Positions 16,930 through 23,436 of a stretch of 64,000 nucleotides of DNA are shown in pieces. The translations under genes were made by a program, and so were the position numbers. Numbering within the stretch: the first letter of the stretch is position 1; every line of letters begins with the position of its first letter. Location of the stretch: the NCBI RefSeq assembly GCF_003097355.1, contig NZ_PYUI01000002.1, positions 248,001-312,000 on the forward strand, in the 5' to 3' direction. This DNA is from Arthrobacter sp. H-02-3 (GTDB lineage Bacteria; Actinomycetota; Actinomycetes; Actinomycetales; Micrococcaceae). Below the pieces are notes generated by a model. That model was given only the letters and a program-made list of their open reading frames with translations. It did no database searches and was not told the origin of the DNA.

Positions 16930-18399
16930 TCAGTAGCGGGCCGCGTAGCCATAGAGCTGCATCCCGGACATGGCGGCCACATCGGTGACGGTGATGCCGG
17001 CGTCGGGATTGAGGGCCTGGACCACGCGGCCGCCGCCGAGGTAGATGGCCACATGGTAGAACCCCGGAGGTGAACCCCAGACGAGCAAGTCGCCGGGACG
17101 GGCCTGGGAGAGCGGTACGTGGACAGGGGCCTGCGCGAACTGCTGGGAGGCCGTGCGCGGCAGATACTTGCCGGCCGCGGCGAATGCATTCTGCACCAGG
17201 CCCGAGCAGTCAAACCCGTAGGCACCGGTTCCGCCGTACTGGTAGAAGTACGGCGATCCGGTCTTGCCAAGCGCCACCGAAATGGCCGTCTGGTTTGACC
17301 CGCCGGCAATCGGCGCGGGAACCGGGACCGGCGCCGGGACGGGCACAGGATCCGGAACGGGTACCGGTGCCGGTGCCTGAACGGGCTCCGGAGCAGGAAC
17401 AGGAGCAGGAGCGGGCTCCGGGGCGGCAGCGGGCGGCACCTCGACCGGGGCTGGGGCCGGCGCGGCTGGCTGCGGGGCGGCCGAACCGCCTCCTCCCGGT
17501 GATGCCGGGGCCGGCTGGGAACCTGAAGCAGGCTGGGAGCCGGTGCCCGGCTGCGGGGCGGAGCCGGCAGCGGCGGTCAGGGCCGCCAGCCGTTCCTGCT
17601 GGCGCTGCCGGTCGAGGGCGTCCACCCGGGCCGACTCCAGCGCCGCGGTGGTGTTCCTGAGGCTTGCCAGCTGGTCCACCAGGGCGGACCGCTGGGCTTT
17701 GGCATCTGCCACGGCCTGGCGCTGGGCAGCCGTCGCGCGGTCGGCGTCGGTCTTGCGGGCTTCCGCCGTCGTGGCCGCCTCGTCGGCGGCGCGGTTGGCA
17801 TCTGCCGCGGCCTCCGTCAACGACTGCGCGGCGGCGGCCGCGGTTTCCGCGGACTGGAAGGCCCGGGCGCGTCCGGCCGTCACGGCCTCCAGGGTGGCGG
17901 CATCTTCGAGCGCCTGCCCGGTGCCGCTGACAAAGCTGCTAAGGGCCGGATTCAGGCCGCCGTTGCGGTACAGATCGCCGGCCAGCTGGCCGACCTGCTT
18001 GCGGGCCTTGGCCTGTTCGGCCTCGGCGGCGGCAGCCCTGGCTGCTGCGACAGTTGCCGCGTCACGCCGGGTGGCGAGCTCCACGAGGGCCTCGCCGTAG
18101 GCGTTGTTCGCTTGCAGGGATGCGCCGAGGCTGGCTTCCTGGGCGGCCGAGGCATCGGCCAGGAGCCCGTCGATCCTGGTGACCTCCGCCGCCGTCGCGC
18201 TTTCACTGGACTTGGCGGCGGCAATCTCTTCCGGCGAGGGGATCTCCGGCGACGCCGGAACCCGGCCGGCGGCCGGCAGGGATCCGCGTGCCTGCGCAAG
18301 AGTCAGTGCAGAGGCCTGCGCCGGGAGCGCGAGCGTTCCAAGGAGGACGACGGCGGTGCACAGCACAGCCGTCTTGCGACCGGATCCGGTCCAGCTCAT
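16930..18399 (-). CDS. NlpC/P60-family peptidoglycan endopeptidase
   Basis: A secreted D,L-endopeptidase-type cell-wall hydrolase of about 489 residues. Order: signal peptide (KTAVLCTAVVLLGTLALPAQASA), an Ala-rich coiled-coil region (about 60-290), a Pro/Ala linker built from PVP/PAP units (about 300-375), and a C-terminal NlpC/P60 domain with catalytic Cys398 in YGFDCSGLVQNAF and His449 in GFYHVAIYLGGG, the third polar residue probably in ALNPDAG. This layout matches RipA-like hydrolases, where the coiled coil restrains the enzyme. The start at 18399 is chosen for its GCGAGG ribosome site; that site is itself locked in a perfect hairpin (see the leader entry), so translation is probably regulated. 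Confidence 0.92.
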   Translation of the reverse strand: MSWTGSGRKTAVLCTAVVLLGTLALPAQASALTLAQARGSLPAAGRVPASPEIPSPEEIAAAKSSESATAAEVTRIDGLLADASAAQEASLGASLQANNAYGEALVELATRRDAATVAAARAAAAEAEQAKARKQVGQLAGDLYRNGGLNPALSSFVSGTGQALEDAATLEAVTAGRARAFQSAETAAAAAQSLTEAAADANRAADEAATTAEARKTDADRATAAQRQAVADAKAQRSALVDQLASLRNTTAALESARVDALDRQRQQERLAALTAAAGSAPQPGTGSQPASGSQPAPASPGGGGSAAPQPAAPAPAPVEVPPAAAPEPAPAPVPAPEPVQAPAPVPVPDPVPVPAPVPVPAPIAGGSNQTAISVALGKTGSPYFYQYGGTGAYGFDCSGLVQNAFAAAGKYLPRTASQQFAQAPVHVPLSQARPGDLLVWGSPPGFYHVAIYLGGGRVVQALNPDAGITVTDVAAMSGMQLYGYAARY

Positions 18400-18404
18400 G
18401 GGCA

Positions 18405-18517
18405 AACCTCGCTGAAGTCTCAGGCTGGAATGAGCGAGGTTGGATTTGGCACGTGAAGAAGCCCCTCTGCGGATCACCCAGCAGGCATGAGGCTACGTGC
18501 CAAAGACCACTTTGGCA
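18405..18517 (-). promoter_or_regulatory. candidate riboswitch-like leader of the NlpC/P60 gene
   Basis: Read on the minus strand, the leader contains segment 1 TGCCAAAG (18510-18517), segment 2 CTTTGGCACGT (18495-18505) and segment 3 ACGTGCCAAA (18445-18454). Segment 2 can pair perfectly with segment 1 (8 pairs, 4-base loop) or with segment 3 (10 pairs), but not with both. Next to segment 3 lies AACCTCGCT (18433-18441), a perfect 9-base complement of AGCGAGGTT (18405-18413), which contains the ribosome site. This is the architecture of a translational switch. The c-di-AMP (ydaO) riboswitch often precedes such hydrolases in actinobacteria, but its conserved core is not clearly present. The rest of the gap, 18518-18729, shows nothing else I can support. 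Confidence 0.55.
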
Positions 18518-18729
18518 ACACGAGTCACACCAACAACATAAACAACATTGGTGTCATTTAGCCACGTTTGCGCGGGGTGTGTCCGGCCGGGGACAGGTTA
18601 TCGGCGGCGCGTCAGTCGGGCCCGGGGCAGCGCAGGGAGGAACGCATGCAGCAAACGGCGCCCGGGGCGGCGGCCGGACCAGCGGCCTGAACGCCAGCGG
18701 CCTGCCCCGGGTTAACGCGCTCCCGTCGC

Positions 18730-19650
18730 TTAGGCGTGCTGGTGCGCTTCGTGCTCCGAGTGGGTGGCGGGTTCCAGCTGGAAGGTGCAGTGTTCCGTGT
18801 CGAAGTGGGAGCCCAGGCAGGCGGTGAGCTTGTCCAAGACCCGGTCGGCGCCACGGGCGCCGAGCGCGGCGTCCTCCACCACCACGTGCGCGGAGAACAC
18901 GGGGACGCCCGAGGTGATGGTCCAGATGTGGATGTCGTGGACGGAGACCACGCCGTCCACCGCGAGGATGTGCTCGCGGATCATCTGGACGTCCACGCCC
19001 TTGGGGGTGGCCTCAAGGAGTACGTCCACAACGTCGCGCAGCAGGTGCCAGGCCCGCGGCAGGATCATGAGGGCAATGAGGATCGAGGCAATGGTGTCTG
19101 CCGCCTGGAATCCGGTGATCATGATGACCAGCGCTGCCGCGATGACGGCAAAGGATCCCAGCAGATCGCCCAGGACCTCCAGGTAGGCGCCGCGGACGTT
19201 GAGGCTTTCCTTCTGGGCGCCGCGCAGGATCAGCAGGGAGACCAGGTTGGCGACGGCGCCGAGGATCGCAGCGGACAGCATGACGTCGGTGTGGACCTCC
19301 GGGGCCGAGCCGAGCCGGCGGATCGCTTCCGTGAAGATCACCACCGAGATGACGATCAGGACCAGGGCGTTTGCCAGTGCGGCCAAGACCTCGGCGCGCT
19401 GGTATCCGTAAGTGCGAAGGTCGCTGGCGGGCCGGGTGGCGATCCATGCGGCCAGCAGGGCGATGAAGACGCCGGCGGCGTCGGAGAGCATGTGGCCGGC
19501 GTCAGCGAGCAGCGCCAGGGAGCCCGAGATGACGGCGCCAATGGTTTGCACGAGCACCACAGCGAGCGTGATGGCCAGGACGGCGATCAGGCGCTTCCGA
19601 TGTTTCCCGGTCGCGGTGATGCCGTGCGAGTGGCTGTGGTCGTGTCCCAT
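18730..19650 (-). CDS. cation diffusion facilitator (Zn/Co/Cd exporter)
   Basis: A 306-residue inner-membrane metal/proton antiporter of the CDF family (CzcD/ZitB type). It has a histidine-rich N-terminus (HDHSHSH at 3-9), six transmembrane helices with the helix-2 motif ALLADAGHMLSDAAGV and a helix-5 counterpart in GDLLGSFAVIAAA, and a cytoplasmic C-terminal domain (VDGVVSVHDIHIWTITSG) that dimerises and senses metal. The start at 19650 follows AGAGG and is only 10 bases from the stop of the upstream zincin gene, so it is the last gene of a three-gene operon. Metal specificity is probably zinc but is not proven. Confidence 0.93.
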   Translation of the reverse strand: MGHDHSHSHGITATGKHRKRLIAVLAITLAVVLVQTIGAVISGSLALLADAGHMLSDAAGVFIALLAAWIATRPASDLRTYGYQRAEVLAALANALVLIVISVVIFTEAIRRLGSAPEVHTDVMLSAAILGAVANLVSLLILRGAQKESLNVRGAYLEVLGDLLGSFAVIAAALVIMITGFQAADTIASILIALMILPRAWHLLRDVVDVLLEATPKGVDVQMIREHILAVDGVVSVHDIHIWTITSGVPVFSAHVVVEDAALGARGADRVLDKLTACLGSHFDTEHCTFQLEPATHSEHEAHQHA

Positions 19651-23053: not shown

Positions 23054-23126
23054 GCCCCCATCGTCTAGCGGCCTAGGACACCGCCCTTTCACGGCGGCGG
23101 CACGGGTTCGAATCCCGTTGGGGGTA
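23054..23126 (+). tRNA. tRNA-Glu (UUC)
   Basis: A 73-base cloverleaf: acceptor GCCCCCA pairs with TGGGGGT, anticodon stem CCGCC/GGCGG around loop CTTTCAC with anticodon TTC, T arm CGGGTTCGAATCCCG. The discriminator is A and CCA is not encoded. It is the first of three tRNA genes in a row. Confidence 0.96.
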
Positions 23127-23241
23127 CGCAAGGAAGTGGTCAAACCGGATGAAAAAGTCTGGTAGGCTAAAGGCCTTGAAAAATTGCGGTAGCGATACCG
23201 CAGTGAGCAAGAAACACGCAGTACAAGCAGTAAACAAGCAA

Positions 23242-23315
23242 GGCCCTGTAGCGCAGTTGGTTAGCGCGCCGCCCTGTCACGGCGGAGGTCGCGGGTTCAA
23301 GTCCCGTCAGGGTCG
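23242..23315 (+). tRNA. tRNA-Asp (GUC)
   Basis: A 74-base cloverleaf: acceptor GGCCCTG/CAGGGTC (one G-U pair), anticodon stem CCGCC/GGCGG with loop CTGTCAC and anticodon GTC, T arm GCGGGTTCAAGTCCCGT, discriminator G as needed by AspRS. CCA is not encoded. Confidence 0.96.
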
Positions 23316-23363
23316 CTCTGATTGCCAGAAGAAATTCCGGCCGTCAAGGTGACATGTCACCTA

Positions 23364-23436
23364 GGCTCTGTAGCTCAGTTGGTAGAGCGTTCGACTGAAA
23401 ATCGAAAGGTCACCGGATCGACGCCGGTCGGAGCCA
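23364..23436 (+). tRNA. tRNA-Phe (GAA), T-loop variant
   Basis: A 73-base cloverleaf: acceptor GGCTCTG/CGGAGCC, D arm TAGCTCAGTTGGTAGAGC, anticodon stem TTCGA/TCGAA with loop CTGAAAA and anticodon GAA. The T arm is ACCGG-ATCGACG-CCGGT: the usual T54 is A here. Discriminator A; CCA not encoded. Confidence 0.95.

Follow-up and report, generated by a model that had tools for sequence, protein, structure and literature searches.

A genus-wide conserved promoter and a candidate translational leader RNA upstream of an NlpC/P60 hydrolase gene of Arthrobacter

What is the function of the complementary segments that precede a gene for a secreted cell wall hydrolase in Arthrobacter, and do they belong to a riboswitch? 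The window, that is, the whole stretch of 64,000 nucleotides that was analysed, has the genomic context of Arthrobacter, and its named relatives are species of Arthrobacter, Pseudarthrobacter, and Paenarthrobacter. The initial annotation had read the segments as a translational switch in front of an NlpC/P60 hydrolase, possibly a diverged member of the c-di-AMP (ydaO) class or a class of its own. The identity of the gene 3' of the leader is borne out by its match to PF00877 (E 2.5e-20), and its product also matches a solved NlpC/P60 family protein (PDB 8idc chain E, 1.5e-11). The hydrolase is called RipC-like only, because its match to NCBIfam RipC (E 1e-18, 67.9 bits) falls below the family cut-off of 425 bits.

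16930 to 18399, minus strand: gene of the RipC-like secreted NlpC/P60 hydrolase, start codon ATG at 18399

Two alternative coding assignments were rejected. An N-terminal extension from the listed GTG start at 18477 would place its first codon within a 5' UTR whose length is free to vary among relatives, and a short upstream open reading frame, MPAG* (ATG 18488), begins directly after the -10 element and is unconserved in relatives. Elsewhere in the window three tRNA genes are clustered at 23054-23436 on the plus strand.

The segments that had drawn attention to the locus are as follows.

18517-18510, minus strand: segment 1, TGCCAAAG, overlapped by the -35 element
18505-18495, minus strand: segment 2, CTTTGGCACGT, adjoining and overlapping the -10 element
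18454-18445, minus strand: segment 3, ACGTGCCAAA
18441-18433, minus strand: segment 4, AACCTCGCT, identical with the anti-Shine-Dalgarno (anti-SD) strand of hairpin P3
18413-18405, minus strand: SD-bearing segment, AGCGAGGTT, identical with the 3' strand of P3

All five lie on the minus strand and are complementary as claimed. The 116-nt stretch that holds them has only three perfect complements of at least 7 bp (8, 10, and 9 bp), and such pairs averaged 0.36 in 2000 dinucleotide-preserving shuffles of the stretch (p = 0.0005 for summed length), so that chance is indeed an unlikely source. The overall fold energy of the region is ordinary (z -1.42; UTR alone, z +0.45). The segments are real, but they are not parts of one switch. 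Complementarity of at least 7 bp between segments 1 and 2 is found in 13 of 112 distinct leaders and between segments 2 and 3 in 5 of 112, and that of segments 1 and 2 is kept only in the nearest clade. Neither duplex co-evolves, the pairing within a genome being no better than that across clades (z +0.5 and +0.7, respectively). Segments 1 and 2 coincide with the -35 element, the spacer, and the -10 element of a promoter; because this DNA lies upstream of the likely transcript start, helices 1:2 and 2:3 should not form in the mRNA, from which both segments are likely absent. The three-segment switch is therefore not supported.

The promoter and the extent of the leader were delineated by comparison with relatives.

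18512 to 18547, minus strand: operator-like box, TGTTGTTTA TGTTGTTGG TGTGACTCG TGTTGCCAA, four units repeated every 9 bp up to and into the -35 element
18513 to 18518, minus strand: -35 element TTGCCA, overlapping segment 1
18490 to 18495, minus strand: -10 element TAGCCT, overlapping and adjoining segment 2
18400 to 18484, minus strand: 5' UTR, with a putative start at about 18484-18482, about 7 nt past the -10 element

The strongest conservation in the aligned leaders is located upstream of the proposed RNA and comprises TGTTGTTTATGTTATTGATGTGAC, TTGCCA, 17-18 bp, and TAGCCT or TAACCT. Among 106 distinct relatives the -35 element is TTGCCA in 85, most of the others having TTGCTA or TTGCTT, and the -10 element is TAGCCT in 81 and TAACCT in 23; the spacer, unconserved in sequence, measures 17 bp in 89 and 18 bp in 17. 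The regular expressions by which leaders were collected partly impose these promoter letters; a looser first pass gave the identical spacing in 52 of 52. With hexamers 16-18 bp apart that are conserved across relatives, the element is, as judged from sequence comparison, a promoter of sigma-70 type conserved throughout the genus. One relative (L046, from genome G005) has its start codon 8 nt past the -10 element, no leader, and a similar orthologous signal peptide, and by this arrangement appears to be a natural leaderless version. The position of the -10 element and this leaderless relative place the likely transcript start near 18484-18482, and the free variation in UTR length among relatives marks the UTR as noncoding.

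The operator-like box is kept in nearly all Arthrobacter relatives and is a candidate response-regulator site. A genome search that allowed up to 3 mismatches found it only once; further copies of the promoter were likewise not found in the genome, a looser pattern yielding no more matches than its reversed control. The units resemble the half sites of MtrA, a GTnAC-type direct repeat, but their period is 9 bp. Described MtrA sites are direct repeats of GTnAC-type half sites with a period of approximately 11 bp (PMC13189361, PMC10609481), the half sites being 5-7 bp and the spacers 4-6 bp long (PMC5650626, PMC13189361, PMC10609481). As in MtrA-controlled promoters of actinobacterial wall genes, GTnAy-like half-site repeats here adjoin the -35 element of a wall-hydrolase gene; MtrA is not assigned as the regulator, because the 9-bp repeat differs from the reported spacing. 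Upstream of the operator, a GACACGCC-like motif (GGACACACC, 18561-18580, minus strand) recurs at a similar distance in most relatives (cGACACRCC) and is possibly an additional regulator site.

Downstream of the promoter the following RNA elements were recognized.

18433 to 18441, minus strand: P3 anti-SD strand, AACCUCGCU, 9 bp perfect with 18413-18405
18405 to 18413, minus strand: P3 3' strand, AGCGAGGUU, which holds the SD GAGG (18410-18407)
18448 to 18463, minus strand: P2 hairpin, GGC (18463-18461) with GCC (18450-18448)
18478 to 18482, minus strand: H1 5' strand, GCUGG, at or adjoining the mRNA 5' end
18424 to 18428, minus strand: H1 3' strand, CCAGC, within the P3 loop and nearly invariant
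18464 to 18467, minus strand: GAGG, candidate anti-anti-SD, which can pair with CCUC (18439-18436)

The SD ends 7 nt before the ATG at 18399 and has a probability of 0.02 of being unpaired in the single-sequence ensemble. When the anti-SD and SD strands of 21 clade representatives were combined in cognate and non-cognate pairs, the cognate P3 duplexes were more stable than the cross-clade ones, only 102 of 5000 permutations being as good. The outer stem differs by clade, yet remains complementary (CAGA:UCUG, CAGGA:UCCUG, UCAA:UUGA), and in most clades complementarity at P3 outlasts the sequence change. Compensatory changes thus preserve the helix that contains the SD, the exception being one subclade (L012, L013, L016, L019, and L176) in which the anti-SD match is gone and P3 is lost or weak. 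A lock on the SD by P3 is well supported by this comparison, from which we infer its effect on translation. The view that a segment upstream of the NlpC/P60 gene pairs with its SD is therefore supported.

The P2 hairpin has only 3 bp in the window; in relatives it has 5-7 bp (GGCAC:GUGCC), with the compensatory variants GGCAU:AUGCC, GGCGC:GCGCC, AGCAC:GUGCU, and GGCAUG:CGUGCC across clades. Double changes arose independently at least three times. A covariance model trained on a single clade recovers the other clades. In the covariance-model alignment, which leans to the model, 89 cells carry double changes versus 19 in shuffles, and pair counts far exceed those of slid and shuffled controls. 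In the sequence-only alignment, 95% of the whole structure is paired, against 31-54% once it is slid. What has survived of the proposed translational switch is hence a conserved SD-locking hairpin within a structured leader that shows covariation, and not the three-segment switch.

A possible second state is suggested by H1. The helix GCUGG:CCAGC is the single one that RNAalifold proposed unaided from a sequence-only alignment of 40 leaders, and it is paired in 98% of the cells of the sequence-only alignment. Its cognate pairing was beaten or equalled by only 22 of 5000 permutations; covariation at H1 in the 40-sequence alignment was within the shuffle range (147 of 500). One leader (L021) carries the double change GCCGG:CCGGC, G-U pairs maintain H1 in several other lineages, and the A. 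globiformis clade re-wires the helix, with GGGCUGGGC facing GCCCCGCCC. The invariance of GCUGG may also be constrained by the promoter or by transcription initiation itself. GAGG (18467-18464) is conserved in the leader alignments, and its pairing with CCUC gave no co-evolution signal of its own (z +1.7). Duplexes of the competing rod surpass shuffles only slightly (mean z -0.8), and in many leaders the energies of P3 and the rod differ by no more than a few kcal/mol (-28.1 versus -26.0 here). H1 and P3 would either exclude one another or combine in a knot, and a toggle between two states is plausible.

We therefore favor, with a probability of roughly 0.55 for the reading as a whole, a promoter with an operator-like box followed by a structured 5' UTR of approximately 90 nt that locks and so controls translation of the hydrolase, possibly as a toggle. 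In the resting fold, P3 would pair CCUCGC with the SD GCGAGG and exclude ribosomes. The anti-SD strand together with the loop that follows (CCUC...CCAGC) has its complement at the 5' end of the mRNA (GCUGG...GAGG), so that a competing rod around P2 would free the SD, or else the 5' end would knot with the P3 loop. Since its strands precede the SD in the transcript, the rod would assemble first and be displaced later; its displacement could be a built-in delay or the entry point for a protein, a small RNA, or a small molecule. Control would be layered, and hydrolase output would therefore be set by the promoter regulator first and by the translational lock second.

Regulation by promoter and operator only, with the UTR a passive leader whose hairpins lack a regulatory role, is the best placed of the alternatives, and we consider it unlikely. 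The box and the -35 and -10 elements do form the most conserved block, one relative lacks the UTR altogether, and the folding energy of the UTR is ordinary; furthermore, genera beyond Arthrobacter keep the promoter block with unrelated UTRs. In two of the same family (g26 and g28) the operator, the promoter, and the orthologous gene are kept and the unrelated leaders are approximately 60 and 180 nt long. The compensatory double changes of P2 and the clade-specific complementarity of P3 would, however, be unexpected in a passive leader. The leaders of these two genera (L214 and L215 of g28, L231 of g26) start with a TGCTGTGTGAATGC-like sequence and have a complementary GCATTCA downstream, which forms a local hairpin in g26 and in g28 lies at a distance of more than 100 nt.

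Leaders that sequester the SD and have anti-anti-SD strands are a known kind, as are the H-type pseudoknot riboswitches preQ1-II and SAM-II. Like these, the present leader carries its SD on the 3' side of a helix, and a strand farther upstream could compete with this helix or form a knot with its loop. Doubtful, and somewhat less probable than a passive leader, is a new riboswitch class, confined to Arthrobacter in the wide sense, that would act on translation through a pseudoknot. The mRNA 5' end would be knotted into the P3 loop, and H1 and P3 together would make an H-type pseudoknot in which the SD is hidden; a small molecule would stabilise this fold, which would sense an envelope or metabolic signal. 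The strands do interleave (5' H1, 5' P3, 3' H1, 3' P3) with permissive loop lengths, and there are conserved unpaired letters, GCCYKA after CCAGC and GGNGANC. However, these short runs are the only ones, few unpaired positions being conserved, and the loops vary in length and sequence; the leader belongs to a single gene family in a single genus and has no Rfam match. Unlike preQ1-II and SAM-II, it shows no conserved ligand pocket, and its embedded hairpin is placed differently.

Still less probable is a thermosensor or fixed brake, in which P3 would lower or temperature-gate translation without a switching partner. This would agree with P3 being the stable state in many leaders and with the anti-anti-SD pairing being free of co-evolution. 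Typical RNA thermometers, though, are mismatched stems, unlike P3, which is an uninterrupted GC-rich stem of 7-9 bp in many clades, and the near invariance of CCAGC within the loop of P3 would be left unexplained.

The initial switch of TGCCAAAG, CTTTGGCACGT, and ACGTGCCAAA, possibly as a diverged c-di-AMP riboswitch, is close to refuted: it has in its favor perfect complementarity in this genome and the control of actinobacterial NlpC/P60 genes by c-di-AMP riboswitches, as the initial annotation stated and a published report describes (PMC9960051), and against it the location of segments 1 and 2 in promoter DNA, the poor conservation and absent co-evolution of its helices, and the Rfam results. 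If there is a real switch, it would use the 5' end GCUGG...GAGG against CCUC...CCAGC and not segments 1-3.

The c-di-AMP model RF00379 gave no match at 18200-18900 even at E <= 10, where ydaO-like fragments had been claimed, and none in the whole window or in 20 relatives. As a positive control, five c-di-AMP riboswitches scored above the Rfam cut-off elsewhere in the same genome (L219-L223; G000 contigs 1, 10, 24, and 25), so the leader is placed outside a class that this genome does possess. One of the five (L221) precedes a secreted lytic-transglycosylase-like protein, as judged by eye. Assignment to any other Rfam family was likewise rejected: over the gathering score, only tRNAs matched in the window, and no leader matched there or in the 20 relatives. 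RF00379 (ydaO/yuaA) likewise occurs upstream of actinobacterial wall hydrolases, unlike which the locus and its relatives lack a match to the model.

A comparable system is the nlpC (cg2402) operon of C. glutamicum, whose promoter is under MtrA, GlxR, and EsrR and whose leader is a translational c-di-AMP riboswitch (PMC9960051). Both loci combine an NlpC/P60 wall hydrolase with a regulated promoter and a 5' UTR acting on translation, both suggested here by comparison. The Arthrobacter leader differs in being short and in lacking the c-di-AMP aptamer, and the box at its promoter is a candidate regulator site only.

When the genus was searched at the DNA level, the sequence of the window as query recovered the leader from 56 of 101 genomes, and a diverged query recovered it from 122 of 206. 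At the family level, covariance model R1 gave few weak matches, one of them outside the genus. In one genome (G031), near-identical copies (L019 and L056) lie at opposite ends of contig 1, probably an unclosed overlap of the circular chromosome. An earlier description was not found in the open literature, most subscription papers being outside the scope of that search. The best reading of this distribution is that of an uncatalogued translational leader apparently restricted to Arthrobacter.

The locus advises caution, since perfect complementarity within one genome may be promoter sequence. In summary, our results indicate that a wall hydrolase of a large soil genus is under a conserved promoter box and an uncatalogued leader RNA. 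If the toggle is true, this would be a compact system of 90 nt in which the 5' end of the mRNA itself is the anti-anti-SD.
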